Positions 6,352 through 60,439 of a stretch of DNA of 64,000 nt are shown here, one piece after another; the first letter of the stretch is position 1, and every line of letters starts with the position of its first letter. Below the pieces are notes generated by a model. The model was given only the letters and a program-made list of their open reading frames with translations, searched no databases and was not told the DNA's origin. The DNA comes from Actinomycetota bacterium (GTDB lineage Bacteria > Actinomycetota > Coriobacteriia > Anaerosomatales > Anaerosomataceae). The DNA lies in the NCBI GenBank assembly GCA_009773565.1, contig WSXY01000004.1, forward strand, positions 1-64,000, in the 5' to 3' direction. The position numbers and the translations under genes are program-made.

Positions 6352-7545
6352 TCAGTCGCGCGCCTTGACGGCCTTGCCGATCTCGCGACCCCAGGCCTCG
6401 GCAGCAGCGATGTCCTCGGCGGTCGGCTTGAACTTCTCGGACAAGTCCTCGAGGGGTGCTTCCAGGCCGATTGCTGTCACGCGCTCACGCATCTGCTTGA
6501 CGGCCCCGCCGCCCCACCCGAACGAGCCGAAGAACGCCGCCAGCCGTCCCGCAGGCTTGAGACCCTCGATGTACTGGATGAACCCGGCTACGCGATACAG
6601 CATGCCGTGGTGGAGCGTCGGCGATCCGAGCACGAGCGCCTTGCCTTCCAGAAGCTCGTAAACGATGTGCGCATTCGACGTCACCGCAAGGTCGAAGAGG
6701 TCGACTTCCACGCCCTCGGCGGCGATACCGTCGGTAATCGACTCGGCCAGCATCTTGGTCGAACCCCACATCGTCGAGTAGACAACGACGGCCTTGTCAC
6801 GCTTGAACCCGTCCGTCCAGCGCCCGTACGCCGCAACGGCAGCGCCAATCGCATCGCCGCGCCAGATCACGCCATGTGACGGCGCAATCACCTCGGGCTC
6901 CCACCCGGCCTCGGCGATCTTGCCCACCATCTTGGCGACCTGCGGGCCAAACGGCAGGAGGATGTTGGCGTAGTAGATGGCGAGTTCCTCGAGCGCCAGA
7001 TCGAGCCCGACCTCGTCCGCGAATCTGCCCGACGAGGCTAGATGCTGACCGAACGCATCGTTTGGCATGAGCGTTCGCACTTCGGCGCAGTAGGTGAACA
7101 TTGAGTCGGGCCAGTGCACCATGGGAGCCGGCATGAACTGCAGCGTGCGGCCGCCGAGGTCGATCGTATCAGCCGCGCTGACAGCTTCGACAACGAGGCC
7201 GTCATGATACTCGGCGACACCCTTCACGCCGGAGCCGGATGCGACAACACGAGCCTTCGGCATCGCTGTCATCACGTCACGGAGGCCGCTGTTGTGATCG
7301 GGCTCAACATGGTTGACGACGATCAACCCGATTTCAGCCGGATCGACGATGTCGGCAACTCGCGAAAGCAATTCGGGAACGAACGGGGTCTTGACGGTGT
7401 CGACAAGCGCCCAGGTGCTCTCTCCCCGCACGAGATAGGCATTGTAGGTCGTGCCACGAGGCGTCTCGTAGCCGTGGAAGTCGCGCAGACCCCAATCGAT
7501 ACCGCCGACCCACCAGATGCCATCGCTCACGGGAATCGCGCGCAT
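6352..7545 (-). CDS. Flavodiiron protein (A-type flavoprotein, O2/NO reductase)
   Basis: An N-terminal metallo-beta-lactamase-like domain carries the diiron ligands: HVEPDH (about residue 79), HWPDSM, NDAFGQH and PSHGVIW. It is followed by a flavodoxin domain with the FMN loop YSTMWGSTKM. The family reduces O2 to water or NO to N2O in the cytoplasm of anaerobes. ATG 7545 is preceded by AGGAG at eight bases; the longer ATG at 7566 is not. A separate rubredoxin would donate electrons; none is adjacent. Confidence 0.93.
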   Translation of the reverse strand: MRAIPVSDGIWWVGGIDWGLRDFHGYETPRGTTYNAYLVRGESTWALVDTVKTPFVPELLSRVADIVDPAEIGLIVVNHVEPDHNSGLRDVMTAMPKARVVASGSGVKGVAEYHDGLVVEAVSAADTIDLGGRTLQFMPAPMVHWPDSMFTYCAEVRTLMPNDAFGQHLASSGRFADEVGLDLALEELAIYYANILLPFGPQVAKMVGKIAEAGWEPEVIAPSHGVIWRGDAIGAAVAAYGRWTDGFKRDKAVVVYSTMWGSTKMLAESITDGIAAEGVEVDLFDLAVTSNAHIVYELLEGKALVLGSPTLHHGMLYRVAGFIQYIEGLKPAGRLAAFFGSFGWGGGAVKQMRERVTAIGLEAPLEDLSEKFKPTAEDIAAAEAWGREIGKAVKARD

Positions 7546-14062: not shown

Positions 14063-14159
14063 TGGCGGAGGCGCGTGCGAATCGAACACACCCAGGACGC
14101 TCTTCACGCCCCACGTCGGTTTTGAAGACCGCGAAGCCCACCAGGACCCATTCGCCTCC
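14063..14159 (-). tRNA. selC: tRNA-Sec (anticodon UCA)
   Basis: On the minus strand the acceptor arm GGAGGCG pairs with CGCCTCC, then G and an encoded CCA at 14065-14063. The anticodon loop CTTCAAA gives UCA (14125-14123). The long variable arm and total length of 97 bases are typical of selenocysteine tRNA. Together with selA, selB and selD in the same window it makes a full Sec-decoding set. It sits alone between the two multihaem cytochromes. Confidence 0.96.
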
Positions 14160-49852: not shown

Positions 49853-52372
49853 CTAGTCCTCGGCAGCCAGGTACTCGAAAGTGGACTTGTAATCGGCAGA
49901 GCTGAGCACGGTGTCATAGAGTCCGATATCCTCGCCCTCATGCTTATTGATTCCTGTGTAACTCAGGCTCGCATCCTCATAGCGCTTGAACTTGTACACC
50001 GCGTCGTTCATAAGTGCGCTGTTAAACACTCCAATGCTCACGAGCAGCTCGAAGTCGCTGACCGTCAGGCCCGTCACCTTCTTGAACAGCGCTGGCTCAA
50101 GCTGAGTAATAACATCCTTAAGACACCGCTCCCGATAGTCAGTCAGGTACATGAAGATCGGGACTCGGGTCGCGAACTTAATCAGCTTCTCCTGAATCTG
50201 TTTGCGTAAACCCTTGTATTCCTTCTCATCCTCCGTGAGTTCCTTCTTCTCCTTCGGAGTCAGATCCTCGTCGTTGGCTTCCCTCCGCGTCTTCTTCACC
50301 GCTTCGGACTTGTTGATGATCGTCTCGATGTCTTGATTCAGGCTACGGAAGCCCTCGATGCTCATCAGCGCAGCCAGCGCGTCCTTGTTGCTAAGAAGCC
50401 GCTGTAAGGTTGCGTTATCTACATTGACCAAAAGAGCACTTTCCCATCGCCGCGCAAGAAGTGTGGCAGTGGTGCCGCTCATGGCCATGTCCAGAACGCC
50501 CGCAGCATCGATCTGCTTCATGGAGCTCCCGTCGTATGCAAGCACGGGCAGGAAGCCGATAAACTCAGCCACCTTCTTCTCGGGATTCGACTCGTCGACA
50601 TTCAGACGGCAACTGTAGTCGGCAATCTGCCGCAAAGCCCTGTCAGGCGCGAAGTCGAAGACGTAGCACTCCTCTTTGAGGATTCGCTCTTCGTTCGGGT
50701 TGGTTCCGTCTGGATTGTGAATCGTCCAAGGAGACTGGACACGGAACGCTGCCTGAAAGTAGGTCTCAGGACTGGACAGGTTGCGGAGCATGAAGATGCC
50801 CGTCCAAGGACGGACGGTGACACCCGTGATGAGTTTGAGGCAGGAAAGAGTAATAGACTTGGATTCAAGCGGGTCCTCCATGGCATCAAGAACGGGAGGC
50901 AGGGCGGCGACCCCGATGCCTGCCGCACTACCCGCCGCGACGACCACTTTGTAGTCATGGAAGAAGGTATTCTGCTTCTTCGCCATGAGGTTCCGCATGG
51001 CATGACAAGAGGCAACGCCGGGCAGAAACCAGAAGGTGTGCGACAGCACATTGAGGAGACGAGCGTCCGAGAACGGCATCGGCGGCTTCTGCGCACCCAA
51101 CTTGAGATTGTCAACGCTGGTCGGCATGAACGAGCCTCTGATGAGGTCTAGCCACTTCTGCACTTCATCTTCGTAGGCAAACTTCGCGCTCTCGCCGAGT
51201 CCCGTAGCGGAGAAGAAGACGTTGAGGTCGAATTCGCTGAACTCCCCACGCATCGCGATGTCACGAATCGCATCGGGCAGTTGGTACGTCATCAGCACCA
51301 TACGGGGCAGCGCAGCATAGGGGCTGTCATCACCCTGCCAGTCCCGTTTTGCTCGTTGTTCGTCCGAGTAGGTCCAGTTGAATATCTGCTCTTCTATGAA
51401 CTCGCCCGATGCGATTGCTCTGAACGGTGTTCCAGAGAGATAGAGGTAGTAGTCCGTGGTGATGGGCATGATGTCCTCATCGAAATCCGCAATGCCCTCG
51501 CCCTCGCCGAACTCGACTTCTCGCTTGTCTTCGGCCTCAAAGAGCTCCTTGGCGCTCTCACGCCATGCACCGTAGTGATACTCGTCAAGGATCACGCAAT
51601 CCCAGTTGGTCGAGTGCACCCACTCGTTCTTTGTCTTAATGCCGCCGGTACTCTTGTTTTTGCCGAGATAGTCCTGAAACGAGCCAAAACATACCAAGGG
51701 CCTCTGCTTGTCCGCGTCCTCATACGTGAGTCCGCCAGGTGAGATGAACTGCCAGCCCGCGAAGTCGACATGCGACTTTAGGTCCTCTTCCCATGCGCTT
51801 TGGACGGCAGGCTTGAAGGTCAGAACAAGAACCTTCATCCAGCCCATCTTCTCGGCGAGTTGGTAGGCGGCGAAGGTCTTGCCGAAACGCATCTTCGCGT
51901 TCCAGAGAAAGTGAAGGGGCTTGCCCGCTTTCTCCTTCCTGAATGACTGAAAGTAGGCGGATGTTCTCTCAACCGCGGCTTCCTGCTCAGGGCGCATCAC
52001 GAAATCTAGTGAACGGTTCTCTTCATTCAGTTGCCCCGTCTTGACGGCAACTATCGCCGCCTTTACCTGTTCGAGAGTGCACCGAAAGAACTCGCTGCCA
52101 CCCTGCTTCCTGATTCCGGCCGTGCGCAGGTAGCGATGCACATCGTGGTCGGTGAAGACGGTGCCGTCCTTGCGCATCGCGCTCTCTTCGAGGACGACGC
52201 GATATGGCAACGCACCTGGCTTCTTGGTCGGGTACTGCTGCGCTACACGACTCGCAGCATCGACCGTGGTGTAGCCGACCTTGAGCATGCCTGCGTATTG
52301 AGGATTTGTGTCCTCGAAGGCGTAGATGGTTGGGTTGGATGCCGGTCTCGGAGGAAAGAAGCCATTACTCAT
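49853..52372 (-). CDS. DEAD/DEAH-type helicase-nuclease with GIY-YIG-like N-terminus (restriction-like)
   Basis: 839 residues. N-terminus (YAFEDTNPQYAGMLKVGYTTVDAASRVAQQYP) resembles the T5orf172/MUG113 GIY-YIG domain. The helicase core has NAKMRFGKTFAAYQ as motif I, ILDEYHYG as motif II and YLSGTPFRA as motif III; a QxxFRVQSPW motif VI follows. Two methyltransferase genes lie upstream with 8- and 14-base overlaps. The set looks like a restriction-modification system; whether the N-terminus cuts DNA is unproven. Confidence 0.82.
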   Translation of the reverse strand: MSNGFFPPRPASNPTIYAFEDTNPQYAGMLKVGYTTVDAASRVAQQYPTKKPGALPYRVVLEESAMRKDGTVFTDHDVHRYLRTAGIRKQGGSEFFRCTLEQVKAAIVAVKTGQLNEENRSLDFVMRPEQEAAVERTSAYFQSFRKEKAGKPLHFLWNAKMRFGKTFAAYQLAEKMGWMKVLVLTFKPAVQSAWEEDLKSHVDFAGWQFISPGGLTYEDADKQRPLVCFGSFQDYLGKNKSTGGIKTKNEWVHSTNWDCVILDEYHYGAWRESAKELFEAEDKREVEFGEGEGIADFDEDIMPITTDYYLYLSGTPFRAIASGEFIEEQIFNWTYSDEQRAKRDWQGDDSPYAALPRMVLMTYQLPDAIRDIAMRGEFSEFDLNVFFSATGLGESAKFAYEDEVQKWLDLIRGSFMPTSVDNLKLGAQKPPMPFSDARLLNVLSHTFWFLPGVASCHAMRNLMAKKQNTFFHDYKVVVAAGSAAGIGVAALPPVLDAMEDPLESKSITLSCLKLITGVTVRPWTGIFMLRNLSSPETYFQAAFRVQSPWTIHNPDGTNPNEERILKEECYVFDFAPDRALRQIADYSCRLNVDESNPEKKVAEFIGFLPVLAYDGSSMKQIDAAGVLDMAMSGTTATLLARRWESALLVNVDNATLQRLLSNKDALAALMSIEGFRSLNQDIETIINKSEAVKKTRREANDEDLTPKEKKELTEDEKEYKGLRKQIQEKLIKFATRVPIFMYLTDYRERCLKDVITQLEPALFKKVTGLTVSDFELLVSIGVFNSALMNDAVYKFKRYEDASLSYTGINKHEGEDIGLYDTVLSSADYKSTFEYLAAED

Positions 52373-53879
52373 CGTTTGCGACCAACCCTCGAACCCGCGA
52401 CTCGACGAACTGAACTTCGTCCTCAGTCAGACCGTACTCCTCGTAGAGTTGATCGTCAGTCCAGATGCGAGTCCAGGCCTGCTGTGGCACCCACGTATAG
52501 GTCGAACGGGTGGCATGCTGAGTGATCTTGCGAAGTGAAACCAGGAACCGCAGGAACCTAGTCCGCACATAACTCTCCACGCTTTCGGCTGCCTCTCGGC
52601 TGTCCACATGGATGAACAGGTAGGTCTGCGTGCATACCGACGGGCTTGGTGCCACAAAGGGCTGACCAAGAATCTGGTGCGGGATTGCCTCGCCCGCGCC
52701 GTACGCCTGCGGAATCATCACTTTCCACGTGTCGATTAGATGACGGCTCTTTGTAACCTCCGAACGAGCAATCCATCCACGGCTTCGCTTGCCCTTTGTG
52801 ATGTAGTAGAGCGGCACGTCGCTTGGCAGGAACTTCTCGTCGTGGTATCCGCTGAAATTCGACGTCCAGCCAAACTCCTTGTCGACTGACAGGATCTCCG
52901 TGATAGACCGCTCCTTCTTTGCCATGACCTTCTCAAGGATGCCGATGGCGCGGCTGTCTCGGACGAATACATCATGCTCGCCGAGGATGCGATCGACTGG
53001 TCCGACAACTTCGTCACCCCGGATTGTCGTTACTGCACAATCGCCCTCTGTGTCGCGCTCCCACAGGAAGTAGCACACACCACCTTTGACCTCGACCCCG
53101 GGGAACACCTCGCTCGCTACTGGGTAGTCAACGAGCGTCCTGATGTGTCGGTCGCTCAACATCGTCTGCCGAAACTCGGACAGTCCCAGACCACTTGCCA
53201 TCCAGCGCGATGGGATAATCATGCAAAGAAAGCGCGGATTCAACTTCTTCGCCTGCTCAACGAACTTGTTGTAGATGGGCATGTCGCGAGTGCCGCCGTC
53301 CGACCCCAACTGGTAGGGCGGATTGCCTACGATGACATCGAACTTCATTTCGAGTACTCCTCCCGGCAGAGTGGCGTGAATGAACTCGTAGGCATGAGTT
53401 TCGAGCTCCCTGCTGCGCTCGTATTCCTGTTGACCAGCATTGCAGTAAACGCACCGCCCCTTCTCCCACTTGTGTTCGACGCGCCGAAAATGGATGTTGC
53501 CATCAGGCTCGTCAAAGGACTCGCAGACGGAGTACTTCCCATCCGCCGTCTTCGAGCAGTAGACCGAGCGTCTGGCAAGTAGCGACGTCAACTCCGTGAT
53601 TGCCAGACCGAAGAGTTGGTTCTTGAAGATGTGATTCAGCCGCTGTTGTCTGTCGGGGATTGCCTGCTCCAATCCGACATCCAGCCTCTTGGCTATCTCA
53701 CGCAGAAACACACCAGACTTGCAGCCTGGGTCTAGGAACCGTGATTCCTTGTCACTCCAGAGTCCCGTGGGCAACAAGTCGAGAATTTCATTCACCAACT
53801 GCGGCGGCGTAAAGACTTCGTCGCTGCTCAGGTTCGCCAGACACGCAAGCACGTCGGGGTTATGACTAGTCATCAACAC
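52365..53879 (-). CDS. Eco57I-like adenine DNA methyltransferase
   Basis: 504 residues with FLDPGCKSGVFLREIAKRL (SAM motif I, with CKSG in place of the usual CGSG) and FDVIVGNPPYQLG (motif IV NPPY, adenine N6). The C-terminal half is a target recognition region. The GTG at 53879 has GGAGG six bases upstream and is chosen over ATG 53873. It overlaps the helicase by eight bases. Confidence 0.87.
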   Translation of the reverse strand: MLMTSHNPDVLACLANLSSDEVFTPPQLVNEILDLLPTGLWSDKESRFLDPGCKSGVFLREIAKRLDVGLEQAIPDRQQRLNHIFKNQLFGLAITELTSLLARRSVYCSKTADGKYSVCESFDEPDGNIHFRRVEHKWEKGRCVYCNAGQQEYERSRELETHAYEFIHATLPGGVLEMKFDVIVGNPPYQLGSDGGTRDMPIYNKFVEQAKKLNPRFLCMIIPSRWMASGLGLSEFRQTMLSDRHIRTLVDYPVASEVFPGVEVKGGVCYFLWERDTEGDCAVTTIRGDEVVGPVDRILGEHDVFVRDSRAIGILEKVMAKKERSITEILSVDKEFGWTSNFSGYHDEKFLPSDVPLYYITKGKRSRGWIARSEVTKSRHLIDTWKVMIPQAYGAGEAIPHQILGQPFVAPSPSVCTQTYLFIHVDSREAAESVESYVRTRFLRFLVSLRKITQHATRSTYTWVPQQAWTRIWTDDQLYEEYGLTEDEVQFVESRVRGLVANDE

Positions 53880-54552
53880 AGGCGACCTCCAAGAAGTGAG
53901 TCAGGGGATACTCGCGCACGGGGTTGGGAATGAAGACGTCCTCGCCGAGGTCGGAGACCTCACCAGGACCAGAGAAGAGCGAGCCACCCTTCGTGTCGGC
54001 ACCTTCCACCAGCCCAGAATAGGAGAAGTCCCGCCGCTTCATCATGCTGCCTCTGACCAGCGACCACTCTGAGAACACAATCGGCGCGGGATTCTCAGCA
54101 ACCGTCTTCAGTGTGAGTGCGTCCCCCTGGACGATGTTGCGACACAGAAGGTAGCGGATGGCTTCTCTGCACTCGGCAGAGCCCTTCTTCTTGAAGAGGC
54201 GCGTGTACTCGCCGTCGAACACCTCGTATAGACGCTCCCGGCATGCCTGAACGTTGTCCTCAAGAATGTCGATGCCGTATACAGAAGACACTGCAGTGAC
54301 GGCGTGTCGCTGGTATTCAAGGTGCGCCTTGCTGTATCGGGTGGCGACGATAGCGAGCTTCCGCCTCAGGATCTCCGCCAAGAAGTTGCCTGTACCGCAT
54401 GCAGGTTCTAGGAACCGCGAATCGATACGCTCGGTCTCCTGTCTGACCAGGTCGAGCATGGCATTGACCTCTCGCTCACCGGTCAACACCTCACCGTGAT
54501 CCGCGACTCGTTGCCTGGATACAACCTGCTTGTTCACGGCCCGCCTATCCAT
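53866..54552 (-). CDS. Partial-type DNA methyltransferase subunit
   Basis: 228 residues: GEVLTGEREVNAMLDLV and FLEPACGTGNFLAEILRRK form a good SAM motif I, but in place of NPPY there is only NPAPIVFSEW. Since the second protein has NPPY but a weakened motif I, the two could act together as one split enzyme. It is the first gene of the three-gene unit. Confidence 0.78.
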   Translation of the reverse strand: MDRRAVNKQVVSRQRVADHGEVLTGEREVNAMLDLVRQETERIDSRFLEPACGTGNFLAEILRRKLAIVATRYSKAHLEYQRHAVTAVSSVYGIDILEDNVQACRERLYEVFDGEYTRLFKKKGSAECREAIRYLLCRNIVQGDALTLKTVAENPAPIVFSEWSLVRGSMMKRRDFSYSGLVEGADTKGGSLFSGPGEVSDLGEDVFIPNPVREYPLTHFLEVACVDD

Positions 54553-54831: not shown

Positions 54832-55491
54832 CTAGGCACCGGTCAGGTGACCAGTCCGGCTATCGAAGCCAGCAGGCTCAACGTCAAAGACCGACATGTC
54901 CGTCTCGATTCTCGCAAGCGGATAGAGCCGAAGCGCGAGCCGACGGCAGATGAAGTAGGCCGCAAGCGCATCTTCGTAGGAGAACATGTGGGTGTCTTTG
55001 GGATGGTCGAAGTCGTGCTTGGCGGAGTTGTTGATTGGTGCAAAGCGCAACGCCTGATCCAAGGTCACGCTATCGACAACAGCCGAGATCGCCCGCTTGC
55101 GCAACAGGGCACCGAACGTCAGCCTCGGGAAGCGGCCGATTCGTTTCAGCAGAGCTTCGATGTGGGCGCTGCTATCGGTCACTACGGCCCTCGCTAACCA
55201 GGACGCGTCCTCGCGAACCATCATCAGGTGAGCCGAACAGTATTGCAGTGGGCGGAAGACCTCACGATCTCCGACGGCATACCTGCCAACGCCCTGACCC
55301 GGCATGTTGAGCGGCCCACCTCCAAAGACCGGATCCGCAATCGTCAATACGCTCGGGCCGCCAACCGAGTAGTCGAATGAAGTGAAGGCGTGCAGATCGA
55401 GTTGGCCATCCACCGTCATCGAACGGATCGTGGCGACTTCTGAGTCCGAGTAGAGATCGCACAGGAGCTTATTGAGCGTGGATGTGTGAAT
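54832..55491 (-). CDS. Protein of unknown function, possibly starting at ATT
   Basis: The first ATG (55419) has no ribosome site, whereas the frame is open further upstream and reaches ATT at 55491-55489 (IHTSTLNKLLCDLYSDSEV), six bases after GGAAGGGG. The region between looks coding. Either ATT is the start, or an ATG was mutated. About 220 residues with no motif I recognise; FRPLQYCSAHLM and HPKDTHMFSYEDALAAYF are visible. It lies just downstream of an attC-like site on its own strand, as a gene-cassette gene would. Confidence 0.6.
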   Translation of the reverse strand: MHTSTLNKLLCDLYSDSEVATIRSMTVDGQLDLHAFTSFDYSVGGPSVLTIADPVFGGGPLNMPGQGVGRYAVGDREVFRPLQYCSAHLMMVREDASWLARAVVTDSSAHIEALLKRIGRFPRLTFGALLRKRAISAVVDSVTLDQALRFAPINNSAKHDFDHPKDTHMFSYEDALAAYFICRRLALRLYPLARIETDMSVFDVEPAGFDSRTGHLTGA

Positions 55492-55616
55492 GGTCGGCCC
55501 CTTCCGTCAACAGGGCAGTCGGACGGGTTTCCCGCCCTCGCCAGAGACATGCGTTGTCAGCTCCTCAAGCGGATCTTCAGCGCTCATAGGCCCCCCACCT
55601 CGAGTCGTCAATCGCC

Positions 55617-55701
55617 GGCAAACGTGGTGCGGATCAGCTGCGCACAAATGCCCTCCAGATCAGTCTACCTCGTGCGCGCCTGCCGGATGCGCTTGTTAGA
55701 C
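55617..55701 (-). repeat. attC-like recombination site 1
   Basis: Read on the minus strand: GTCTAAC (55701-55695, consensus RYYYAAC), AAGCGCATCC..., a spacer, GTGCGCAGCTGATCCGC, and GTTTGCC (55623-55617, near GTTRRRY). 85 bp, arms imperfectly complementary. About 70% similar to site 2 over its length. Confidence 0.65.
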
Positions 55702-55991
55702 AGATCAATCCCTTGCCCATTACTGACAGCAGAATCGGACTTGGCACTCGTCAACTGAGAGTGCCAAGTAGTACTATATGTGGGCGGCATCACAGTCTGT
55801 CGCACAAGATGTTGCGAACAAGCGCGGAGGGCCCTGCGCCAACAGGACCCTCCCGAGATATGGCCCCGTCGCACGGAGCCGGTGATAGCTGAGAATGCTA
55901 CAGGTATTTAGCGAGTTTCGCACCAAGCCTGTTCACATCTTCAGGAAATCTCCATGACGACGGGGCCGGAAGGGAGCGTGCCGGCCTAGCA

Positions 55992-56044
55992 CATTGCGTC
56001 GTCCACAACTAACTTGCGCAAATGCGCAGAAATGGAGAATTCCG
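55992..56044 (+). promoter_or_regulatory. Upstream region and ribosome site of the cassette gene
   Basis: GGAG stands seven bases before ATG 56045. The frame is open further upstream (55994) but shows no ribosome site there. A GAGGG...CCCTC hairpin lies earlier at 55829-55854. Confidence 0.4.
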
Positions 56045-56740
56045 ATGAACAAGGTAGTGCTTCTTGCCCCAATAGCGGTCGAGTCCGGATCATCGCTGTG
56101 CGATATCGCGCCTACATCTCAGTTCGCAGGTGTCGACTACGACCAAGCGGAGATTCGGCATCAGTTGCTTTTGGTCAACAAGACCGGCCAGGAGATCAGC
56201 GTCCCGCTCGCGTTCATCGAGACGGATCCCGATGAGTCTCGTCCTCCCACCCTCCGGGTCGGGACTGAGCGACGTGATCTTGGCGATCCGAGGACGTTTG
56301 ACCCCGCTTCAACTGAGAAGTTCATCAACGACGCCGTCGCCGCGGCGGTAGCCAACGGCGTGCCCGAGGCAGAGGTGCGTGATTCGCTCAGCGAAGTACT
56401 TTCGAGGGCGAGTCGTTCTCGCAAGACCTTCGTGACAATCCGTCCAGGCGAGCGTTTGTTCGTCGAGTTCATCGAGCACGAGAAGGTTCCTCGCGATGCG
56501 AACGGTGCATTCACATACCAGACCATTGCACCCTTTCCTCAGTTGTCACTCGATCCCGCAGGTGGAAGCTTCTGGCTTTCGGTGATCCTACCTCGCCCGA
56601 TGGGTGGCAGGAGCGCAGTGCTCAGCGATTACACACGTGAATATGGCGCAGCCCCAACCATGCTCCACGACCGGCAAGCAGTCGCTTGGACCTGGAAGCT
56701 CGATCCCATTCTGAGGATCAGTTACACATATAGCGGCTAG
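56045..56740 (+). CDS. Cassette protein of unknown function
   Basis: 231 residues, soluble, starting MNKVVLLAPIAVESGSSLCDI. Features seen: QLLLVNKTGQEISVPLAFIET and a C-terminal beta-rich SFWLSVILPRPMGG. No signal peptide or catalytic motif. It is the only gene between the two attC-like sites. Confidence 0.7.
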   Translation: MNKVVLLAPIAVESGSSLCDIAPTSQFAGVDYDQAEIRHQLLLVNKTGQEISVPLAFIETDPDESRPPTLRVGTERRDLGDPRTFDPASTEKFINDAVAAAVANGVPEAEVRDSLSEVLSRASRSRKTFVTIRPGERLFVEFIEHEKVPRDANGAFTYQTIAPFPQLSLDPAGGSFWLSVILPRPMGGRSAVLSDYTREYGAAPTMLHDRQAVAWTWKLDPILRISYTYSG

Positions 56741-56798
56741 CCCTTCGGCCCGGGCAGCCTCACCGTTGTCCGGGCCACCTCGGCCTGCGAGCGATTCT

Positions 56799-56884
56799 GT
56801 CTAACACATTTGCGCATCAGCTGCGCGCGGGTGTCTTCCTGGTAGGTCTGCCTCGTGCGCGTCAGCTGGATGCGCTTGCTAGTT
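56799..56884 (-). repeat. attC-like recombination site 2
   Basis: Minus strand: AACTAGC (56884-56878, degenerate RYYYAAC), then GCGCATC-c-AGCTG-a-CGCGC, a spacer, GCGCG-CAGCT-GATGCGC, and GTTAGAC (56805-56799). The arms pair perfectly except for two extrahelical bases on the same arm, the hallmark by which integron integrases recognise the folded strand. It starts four bases after the stop of the gene at 56889-57317. Confidence 0.7.
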
Positions 56885-56888
56885 CGGC

Positions 56889-57317
56889 CTATTCGTCGAA
56901 GCTGATACGCTTTGCGACTTCATCAACATGCGCGCGGTGCTGGTCCGCAATCTCCTGCTCGCGCGCTTCCTGGGCGGCGTCTCGCTCGAGCATCTCGCGG
57001 TACTGGCGGTTGGCCTCGTCAGCGGCCAACTTCAGTGTGTCGCGGTGATACTTATCGACCTCCTCAAGTGTGGTTCCGGCGAGAGTCACGATGTGCCCGC
57101 TAACGCGTGCGATGCCAGGGCGGTGCATAGTTGAGAAGCGGGACGGATGGTCCCAAGCCTCGACGAAGTACCTAGCCCAGGCGCTGGGGGCCGCCGCCGA
57201 CAACCTGATGGGCACGGAGTACAGGCCGCTGCCCTCGGTGCCGTCGTTGGGGGGACGCGTCACCTGGGCGGCAATCACGTCGACTAACTTGATGTCTTCG
57301 AAGTCTCTTACGCTCAC
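56889..57317 (-). CDS. Small protein with C-terminal coiled coil, unknown
   Basis: 142 residues; GTG 57317 is eight bases after GGAGG. N-terminal part beta-rich (LVDVIAAQVTRPPND), C-terminal half a charged helix (EEVDKYHRDTLKLAADEANRQYREMLERD). Followed immediately by attC-like site 2 on the same strand, which is the usual cassette gene plus attC order. Confidence 0.7.
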   Translation of the reverse strand: MSVRDFEDIKLVDVIAAQVTRPPNDGTEGSGLYSVPIRLSAAAPSAWARYFVEAWDHPSRFSTMHRPGIARVSGHIVTLAGTTLEEVDKYHRDTLKLAADEANRQYREMLERDAAQEAREQEIADQHRAHVDEVAKRISFDE

Positions 57318-57829: not shown

Positions 57830-59311
57830 TCATCGAAGCTGGGGCGCCGCCCAGAAGGGAACATATCGCATCGCCTTATTGCCGACTTCTGGATCGAACA
57901 GAACAATCATTCTGGCAGCAACTGCCTCTTTGATCAGTCGCGATGCGGTGGCGCTGTTCTTCTGATCGATTCCGAAGCGCTCGCGCACCGAAGCGTTTGT
58001 GAGATTCTCCCTGTTCACGTGTCGTAGGCATGCGTGCAGGTAGACAGCGCGAGTCTTATCGGCCTTGTCCATACTCGCTAGAGGCCGTGGCGAAAATAGG
58101 ACGACGCGAGTGCTGCCGTTGCCTGCCTCGGCAAGCGGTGCCGGCAGCTGATAGAACTCCGACTGAAACACGACCTTGTCCCAGCCGCTTCCTCGTTCTT
58201 CACAGGTGCCAACGCGTCGCATCACGGATGCAAGCAATTCATTGCGGGATCGCGGAGGTGAGTCAACAAAGCGGTTGGTGTCCACCAACGGCTCACCTGG
58301 ATTCGTGATCTCAATGCGGTCGGAGAAGATCTCAATCATCGGGCCTGCACCCGAAACGAAAAGATCCTGGTGGATCAGCGCGTTGGCGACGAGCTCGCGA
58401 ACGGCAAGCACTGGATACACCGGGACCACTGTACGCAACGCGCGTCCAACGACCTCGTTCGTCGGCAGTACGCTATTCACGAAGTCGATAAGACCTTCGA
58501 ATCCGCTTGCATACCCTTTGACGCCTACCTGTTCGTGAATGGTCTCGACTCGGCTGGTTCCGGAATACTGGATCACTCTCATTCCCTTGCGCCCGAGTGA
58601 GCCGAACTCGTCCAGGTGCCGGGCGAACAGAATCGCGCCGAGATTCGTGACGTCCCATCCTCCGGCCAGGTTGGAAACGACCATCTCGTCGGTCTCCAGT
58701 GCTTCCAAGATGCGATTGCCGTCGGCAGGCGTGATAAGACCGAGCATATCGAAGTACGCCTCGAAATCGAGAAAGGCAAGCACGTCCGCGTCTGCGACGC
58801 GCTCTCTCGCGATGAGACGTTCAAAGGGAGTGCTGTCGAAGATCCGCCAGAGATCCCGCTCCTTCTCGGGGAAGTCTTTCAGGTTCTTCATGTACGAACC
58901 CACCCGCACGTACTCATGCCCCTTGAACTTGACCGGGTGCCGGAACGCCGGGTCGATCTCCAAAAGAACGATCGGCCTACCGTCAACTGCCACCTCATAG
59001 AAGCGGAAACCGATCTTCGGGCTCAAGAGATGCAGCAACCAGCTCTCGAGTTCCTCTTTGCCGACCTTTGTAGCTCCAGGCGAGAACGTTGTACCGACAA
59101 CCGCATGTTCATCATCGGCGATGCCCCAGACGAGGTATGCGTGAGCCTTACCGCACAGCGCCGCCGAGTTCGCGAGCGCGGATAGGTATTCGCCGATCTC
59201 CTCGGGATTGGCGTTGTTGTGCTTGAATTCGACCCATTCGGTTTCTCCTGGCAGCTTACACAGCTCACGAACGAGACTCTCGAGGTACTCAGCAGGACGG
59301 TCGGTGCTCAT
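57830..59311 (-). CDS. AlbA_2 / HATPase_c_4 ATP-binding protein
   Basis: 493 residues. N-terminal AlbA_2 (Schlafen AAA-like) domain: GETEWVEFKHNNANPEEIGEYLSALANSAAL with GIADDEHAVVG; C-terminal HATPase-like RELVANALIHQD and a winged helix. Found in transcription regulators and in defence loci. It follows an AbiEi-like regulator gene by 38 bases, so both may be one unit. Confidence 0.88.
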   Translation of the reverse strand: MSTDRPAEYLESLVRELCKLPGETEWVEFKHNNANPEEIGEYLSALANSAALCGKAHAYLVWGIADDEHAVVGTTFSPGATKVGKEELESWLLHLLSPKIGFRFYEVAVDGRPIVLLEIDPAFRHPVKFKGHEYVRVGSYMKNLKDFPEKERDLWRIFDSTPFERLIARERVADADVLAFLDFEAYFDMLGLITPADGNRILEALETDEMVVSNLAGGWDVTNLGAILFARHLDEFGSLGRKGMRVIQYSGTSRVETIHEQVGVKGYASGFEGLIDFVNSVLPTNEVVGRALRTVVPVYPVLAVRELVANALIHQDLFVSGAGPMIEIFSDRIEITNPGEPLVDTNRFVDSPPRSRNELLASVMRRVGTCEERGSGWDKVVFQSEFYQLPAPLAEAGNGSTRVVLFSPRPLASMDKADKTRAVYLHACLRHVNRENLTNASVRERFGIDQKNSATASRLIKEAVAARMIVLFDPEVGNKAMRYVPFWAAPQLR

Positions 59312-59349
59312 GGTTGTTACTTCCTCACGATGTCTTTATCCGGCACCAT

Positions 59350-60369
59350 CTAGAACCCGATCATCCGCTCGCGATAGACTTCAGCCTGCTCGCGACCTCG
59401 TTGCGGGTTCGCGAGCAGATCCGCATACACGCGGAACCTCGACGCGAGGCGAAGATGCTGGTTCTCACCATAGCGGCACTGCGCCATCGGGCCGGTCGTG
59501 GTGGCACGCCACAGCAGCAGGTTGCCACCGTCTTCGGATGCAATGCCGTCAACCGCTCGAAGGAGGTACTCAGGCGTTCTTGGCCCGTGTACCCACAGCT
59601 CGGGCCTTGCGACCGTGGTGAGCGCAGGTGCCTCTAGCAGCGCAGCGACCGTGCCGGTGGCGCAGTAGGAGACGCCCGCGGAGGTAAGCCCCTCAACCGC
59701 AGCCTCGACTATCGTGAGCGGGTCGTCTCCCAGCACGCGGCATCGGACGGCGAGCCGCCGGTCGGCGGCGGCGTCGGCGGCGTAGCGGTCGAGAAGCGCG
59801 GAGGGGTCCGTGAGGGTGCGCACCTTGTGCGGACCGCGACCGGCAACCATGAGCATTCCCTCTGCCTCAAGCCCAAAGAGGACCTTCTGGGCGGTCGCCG
59901 CCGAGACACGGGCCTGATCGGCGATCACGGTCACCTGATGTTTAGCGTCGGGCGCCTCAAGGAGCGATAGCACCACTGCGCCCGTTGCTCCCGCGAGGCT
60001 CGGAAGCATCCGCTCGGGATCGTCTCGGCCGAACGCTCCGACCTCCTCAACGTGCACGAAGAACTCGGGATCGCTCAGGTGTATGTGAACGCGCCGCCGA
60101 TCCACGTAATTGGCTCTGCGCTGCTCGAGCAGTCGCATGGCACCCGGCGTGAAGTCGGTTCCGACGATGACCGCAAGCGGGAGACTCTCACTCTGCGCGA
60201 GGACGCGCTCCACTTCATAGGGTCTGCCGCGGCTGGCGCTCATGGGATGGAGTGTCAGGGGCTGCCCCCCGGCTCGGGTCACCAGCCCATCGCGCCCAGC
60301 GAACTCTCCCAGCCCAAGATCGTTGAGACGGGCTGCTAGCTCCTCGGCTATAGGCTGCTTGTACTGCAT
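59350..60369 (-). CDS. AbiEi-like winged-helix regulator / antitoxin
   Basis: 340 residues; a nuclease-like N-terminal region (YVDRRRVHIHLSDPEFFV), a winged helix (VTVIADQARVSAATAQKVLFGLEAEG) and a C-terminal part (FRVYADLLANPQRGREQAEVYRERM) typical of type IV AbiEi-like proteins. ATG 60369 has GGAG five bases upstream. Partner would be the AlbA_2 gene downstream, an unusual combination. Confidence 0.65.
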   Translation of the reverse strand: MQYKQPIAEELAARLNDLGLGEFAGRDGLVTRAGGQPLTLHPMSASRGRPYEVERVLAQSESLPLAVIVGTDFTPGAMRLLEQRRANYVDRRRVHIHLSDPEFFVHVEEVGAFGRDDPERMLPSLAGATGAVVLSLLEAPDAKHQVTVIADQARVSAATAQKVLFGLEAEGMLMVAGRGPHKVRTLTDPSALLDRYAADAAADRRLAVRCRVLGDDPLTIVEAAVEGLTSAGVSYCATGTVAALLEAPALTTVARPELWVHGPRTPEYLLRAVDGIASEDGGNLLLWRATTTGPMAQCRYGENQHLRLASRFRVYADLLANPQRGREQAEVYRERMIGF

Positions 60370-60439
60370 TATTCTCCAATGCATCTATATTCATGCTCGC
60401 TGAAATATTACTGCAAGATAGAATCACACGCAAGCAGCT

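Follow-up and report, generated by a model that had tools for sequence, protein, structure and literature searches.

CALIN elements, as defined for IntegronFinder (PMC9024848), consist of at least two attC sites less than 4 kb apart, with a cassette between them and with no integron integrase (IntI) nearby. In the survey of complete genomes carried out with IntegronFinder 2.0, integrons were extremely rare in Actinobacteria, none of them complete, and CALINs were few (PMC9024848); a review counts Actinobacteriota among the integron-bearing phyla. An attC site is recognized by a hairpin of its bottom strand that contains an R-box, an unpaired spacer, an L-box, and two to three extrahelical bases on one arm (PMC11641012). 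We analyzed a window of 64,000 nucleotides (positions 1-64000 of contig C16 in a draft genome of 2.27 Mb and 25 contigs), in which two attC sites separated by 1097 bp, with no adjacent integrase, enclose a single cassette. The cluster resembles a CALIN, as the initial annotation of this DNA had proposed for a high-GC actinobacterium. It differs from the described CALINs in that its host is a Coriobacteriia-type actinobacterium and in that the same genome also has a complete integron. The locus is, with high probability, a CALIN that lies away from the integron platform and holds a cassette that IntI once circularized and that was joined at the second of the two sites, the enzyme most likely being the integrase encoded on contig C3 of the same genome.

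The attC sites and the past circularity of cassette B

The cluster contains the following features, with positions given in the window.

55617..55701, plus strand: attC site 1, 85 bp, R' GTTTGCC and R'' GTCTAAC; belongs to cassette B, partly decayed
55623..56804, minus strand: cassette B, 1182 bp from core site to core site; its start GTTAGAC complements its own R'' GTCTAAC
56799..56884, plus strand: attC site 2, 86 bp, R' GTTAGAC and R'' AACTAGC; recognized by the scores of two covariance models and by its fold

The two covariance models were built for this analysis. Model R1 was trained on twelve attC sites from the same genome, with the two sites of the window excluded, and when run on the 64-kb window with filters off it gave 89.3 bits for site 2 (E 1.7e-28) and 54.7 bits for site 1 (E 2.7e-16). 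The runner-up scores in the 64 kb were 16.1 bits, for the reverse strand of site 2, and then a background of 12.5 bits. Model R2 was composed only of attC sites adjoining IntI in other phyla (Cyanobium, Nitrospira, Acidobacteria, Proteobacteria, and others); it gave site 2 a score of 49.9 bits (E 1.3e-9) and site 1 a score of 33 bits (E 1.3e-5), the only remaining match in the window being the reverse strand of site 2. The members of R2 were themselves retrieved with R1, and the two models are thus independent in sequence and dependent in the structure that they assume. Both sites scored far above background in this check, and the coordinates of the sites, their lengths, their common orientation, and the length of the cassette agree exactly with the initial annotation. 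The sites share 78% identity over 72 bp. A sequence at 56002-56028, AACTAACTTGCGCAAATGCGCAG, resembles half of an attC in the opposite orientation and lies just upstream of a plus-strand ORF; R1 gives it no score.

The foldable bottom strand of site 2 corresponds to the plus strand of the window, and the sense of the cassette to the minus strand. In its single-stranded DNA fold, the site 2 bottom strand has a z-score of -4.06, which none of 200 shuffles equaled, and forms a hairpin with a T and a G unpaired on one arm (the L-box), as is typical of attC sites and as had been claimed from the sequence. Site 1 in its genomic form folds no better than its shuffles (z +0.72), several positions of its stem being mispaired. 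When site 1 is given the R' that belongs to it in the circle, the canonical hairpin is regained, with 22 long-range pairs compared to 0 in the genomic form; the predicted energy of this circular form (-13.8 kcal/mol) is weaker than the median of -20.4 kcal/mol for 146 sites. The attC fold is present in site 2 as it stands, and in site 1 only with the circle-form R'. The circular form of cassette B, with GTTAGAC and GTCTAAC, also conforms to the R-box consensus (R'' RYYYAAC, R' GTTRRRY), from which two of the four genomic boxes deviate, these being R'' AACTAGC of site 2 and R' GTTTGCC of site 1. Judged by its predicted folding, site 1 is weakened, not dead.

In a circular cassette, the cassette start and the cassette's own R'' form one attC, and in an array the R' of a site belongs to the next cassette. 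We examined this pairing at four variable positions in 114 cassettes, taken from this genome and from relatives with the same attC family, and compared it with 2000 shuffles. Pairing across the circle was perfect in 78 of the 114 cassettes (shuffled mean 14.8, maximum 27); the two ends within the same genomic site paired exactly in 22 of 114. Cassette B matches at all four variable positions and is one among the 78. The initial annotation had taken the match between the start TTAGAC and R'' GTCTAAC as the mark of a former circle. Considered by itself this match is weak evidence, because a single cassette has a chance of about 13% of showing it (14.8/114), and it is the test over 114 cassettes that is decisive. 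Cassette B was once a circle. A search for an empty site or for a second copy of cassette B found none, and thus no direct sign of its movement.

Five genes or operons lie within the cluster or flank it.

49853-54552: restriction-modification operon, with a helicase-like protein with a T5orf172 domain, an Eco57I-type methylase, and a second methyltransferase
54832..55587, minus strand: gene C, beginning 35 nt past the site 1 core site and interrupted by an in-frame TGA (55507-55509)
56045..56740, plus strand: 231-aa ORF antisense to the attC, the likely gene of cassette B
56889..57317, minus strand: gene A (cassette A), 142 aa, with good codon usage, stopping 5 nt before attC site 2
57830-59311, minus strand: AlbA/Schlafen-type gene, flanking the cluster on its other side

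The plus-strand ORF is considered the likely gene of cassette B on the basis of codon usage, which was the best of the six frames by a modest margin; a minus-strand gene of 121 aa in the same cassette was rejected, its codon score being worse. Genes on the minus strand on both sides had been thought to represent neighboring cassettes. The upstream side fits this view, given the position of gene A directly before site 2, but the downstream side does not, since gene C is interrupted by the TGA (VRLPC*RKGPT, in a frame that is open before and after the stop) and is followed by no further attC. Gene C is probably decayed, and the neighbor on the downstream side is, at best, a cassette that has decayed or is incomplete. 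For cassettes A and C, no outer boundary was found; the predicted upstream start of cassette A, TTAGTT, was sought by eye in the sequence, and no convincing core site was seen. Genes A, B, and C have no family or relative in Pfam, PADLOC, NCBIfam, or 69 genomes of the order, and the 248-aa frame of the cassette ORFs was also without a match in viral contigs or plasmids. A selenocysteine tRNA is found in the same window at 14067-14159 (minus strand). The region beyond the cluster at 57830-60384 (minus strand), which contains the AlbA/Schlafen-type gene and a weak AbiEi-like gene, is possibly a defence island.

Integrase, attI, and attC arrays in the genome and the order

The cluster had been described as lacking an integrase. 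This is correct for the locus, near which a profile search of the genome found no integrase remnant, but not for the genome. The search for intI that the initial annotation had proposed revealed one integron integrase, the only one present, at C3:99419-100360; its score of 481 bits compared to a cut-off of 265 bits rules out an integrase-less genome. The remaining matches to the integrase profile score far lower and seem to be tyrosine recombinases of other kinds. The IntI protein (324 aa) matches the structure of V. cholerae IntI4 (2A3V) over nearly its full length, with an E value of 1.6e-91. Downstream of intI on C3, and in the same direction, are found a YefM/YoeB-type toxin-antitoxin pair, attI, and then the cassettes, one of which encodes a PIN-domain protein and a partner; the contig ends within the third attC. 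The YefM/YoeB-type pair lies at 6441-6943 of locus L051, between intI and attI, and the same pair follows intI in L061 (90% and 80% identity). An AbiEii-type nucleotidyltransferase is encoded immediately upstream of intI (L051:4619-5266). The attI site was located as the place where the start predicted from the R'' of the first cassette occurs.

L051:7010-7088: attI, identified through the cassette start predicted from the first R''

The predicted start was found at one place in 16 of the 17 integrons tested, this genome included, and these 16 have in common an upstream motif that ends AATCATT|GTTAG or similar. IntI, attI, and an attC array are found together on C3, as in a complete integron. 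The whole genome has about 35 attC sites, with arrays at the ends of contigs C3, C24, C20, C7, and C1 and several small clusters inside contigs, that of the window among them; the contig-end arrays are probably one fragmented array. A check for copies of the element outside of cassette contexts had also been proposed, and the copies elsewhere proved to lie mostly within cassette arrays.

In this order, integrons are widespread rather than rare. IntI was detected at E values up to 1e-60 in 47 of 69 genomes, 46 of them above the family cut-off, and in 41 of the 51 high-quality genomes; attC matches were found in 59 of 69 genomes (47 of the 51 of high quality). Across the phylum, an even sample gave IntI in 16 of 396 genomes. 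The statement that such elements are rarely reported in these actinobacteria stands as far as published surveys go, which call actinobacterial integrons extremely rare, but it does not describe the order itself. In a tree of IntI sequences, made by a quick method and with row L142 (a wrong-strand translation) disregarded, the IntI of this genome grouped with those of HGW-Actinobacteria with 99% support, and the label Actinomycetota required 3 changes compared to 14.9 in shuffles. The loci compared from across the order showed essentially no synteny in the regions flanking intI. A literature search found no paper linking integrons to Anaerosomatales; subscription journals fell largely outside of the search, and earlier reports are possible. 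An actinobacterial order rich in IntI, attC, and attI, with cassette ends that record past circles, offers a Gram-positive lineage in which the reasons for the patchy distribution of integrons can be tested, and suggests a pool of cassettes still to be explored.

A CIRCE element within cassette B

Cassette B contains a sequence with the form of the heat-shock operator CIRCE.

55741-55767, no strand assigned: CIRCE element, TTGGCACTC-N9-GAGTGCCAA, inside cassette B

The CIRCE consensus is TTAGCACTC-N9-GAGTGCTAA (PMC1676014). The element of the cassette is perfect in the R/Y form, fitting at 18 of 18 arm positions, and TTGGCACTC-N9-GAGTGCCAA is the variant that precedes groES and hrcA in relatives. 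The core GCACTC-N9-GAGTGC has three copies in the genome, located in cassette B, before groESL, and before hrcA, with the gene families confirmed; most genomes of the order have two. Among the loci examined, no other cassette array contains a CIRCE. A candidate at L080:5035 was rejected as a further array copy, since it directly precedes an hrcA gene.

There is about an even chance, judging from the sequence, that the cassette brought the CIRCE element along and placed a mobile gene under the heat-shock control of the host's HrcA, the gene for which is present in the genome. The competing explanation, that the sequence is a chance palindrome or a terminator with no link to heat shock, we consider rather unlikely. 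It draws on the fact that a consensus promoter scan found no full promoter beside the element, on the 278 nt between the element and the start of the plus-strand gene, on the unclear direction of transcription, and on the reversed core pattern, which turns up by chance roughly once per genome in many members of the order. Against it, the only two other core copies in this genome both lie at heat-shock operons, the reversed-pattern control gave none in this genome, no CIRCE arose in 100 shuffles of the window, and three other single core matches, in relatives L239, L262, and L266, lack the extended arms, all 18 positions of which fit in the cassette.

In relatives, a -10 box sits shortly upstream of CIRCE. 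On the minus strand of the cassette, a TATAGT is found 5 nt upstream of the element with a weak -35, and transcription from this candidate would pass site 1 and enter gene C; on the plus strand, toward gene B, the candidate is a poorer CAGAAT. Under HrcA control, expression of the cassette need not depend on an integron promoter, and repression would be lifted on heat stress. If the cassette functions in this way, a mobile gene would carry a conserved stress operator with it, and, because CIRCE and its repressor HrcA are shared by many bacteria, the cassette would reach a new host pre-wired to the stress response, independent of a common promoter. A literature search found no paper combining CIRCE, HrcA, and integrons, and the CIRCE of the cassette is possibly a novel regulatory feature.

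Origin of the cluster and comparison with known systems

According to the interpretation favored here, IntI would have circularized cassette B and recombined the circle at attC site 2, placing it beside cassette A. The source of the enzyme would most likely be the genome's own C3 integron, which has IntI, attI, and an array whose attC sites are of the same family. The cluster, which comprises just two sites, one of them degraded, may have become remote from the platform through off-target insertion or through rearrangement. The C3 integrase may still be able to excise cassette B in trans, weakly at best, because site 1 is predicted to regain an attC fold when the circle gives it back its own R'.

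A potential concern with this interpretation is that the CALIN could be the relic of a second, lost integron, either through deletion of a local intI or through transfer of the segment from an integrase-bearing organism. The literature names both among the possible sources of CALINs, and the decay of site 1 and of gene C, together with three ORFs that have no homologue in the order, would fit them. The attC sites closely match the family of the resident integron, however, as seen in the 89.3 bits that R1, built from the resident family, gives to site 2, and no integrase remnant was found beside the cluster; we regard such a relic as improbable. Much less probable still is that the cluster belongs to the main integron array and was separated from it by the assembly. 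Several arrays do reach contig ends, as repeats cause in assemblies, but the sites of the window lie 55 kb inside a contig of 150 kb, with other genes on both sides and no further attC in the 64 kb. That the repeat of 70-85 bp is another kind of palindrome (REP, MITE, or terminator-like), a reading prompted by its many copies in the genome, is ruled out by the circle test, in which pairing links the two ends of a cassette rather than those of a site, and by the detection of the copies with a model made from the attC sites of other phyla. In many genomes, moreover, the copies are arranged on a single strand behind IntI and a conserved attI.

The favored interpretation, a CALIN whose cassette would have been joined by the resident integrase, can be compared with several described systems. 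Off-target insertion of cassettes at attG sites (Loot et al. 2024, in the account given by PMC12901181) is similar in that it provides a mechanism, as described in that account, for cassettes far from attI; it differs in that no outer insertion point could be recognized at the present locus. The sedentary chromosomal integrons of the Vibrio type likewise have IntI, attI, lineage-typical attC arrays, and cassettes with unknown genes and toxin-antitoxin systems. In contrast to these, intI is here co-directional with the array, the array follows the 3' end of intI, and a YefM/YoeB-type pair lies between intI and attI. In archaeal integrons, attI is likewise located downstream of intI (PMC9668308). 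The promoter-bearing cassettes of the Vibrio superintegron (PMC11014356) also carry promoters of their own, some of them antisense, whereas the cassette of the window has a specific heat-shock operator. The class I control exerted by HrcA at CIRCE, known from groESL and hrcA-dnaK, has an operator architecture (TTRGCACTC-N9-GAGTGCYAA) identical to that of the cassette, in a genome that contains hrcA; what distinguishes the present locus is that the operator is found within a mobile cassette instead of upstream of a chaperone gene.
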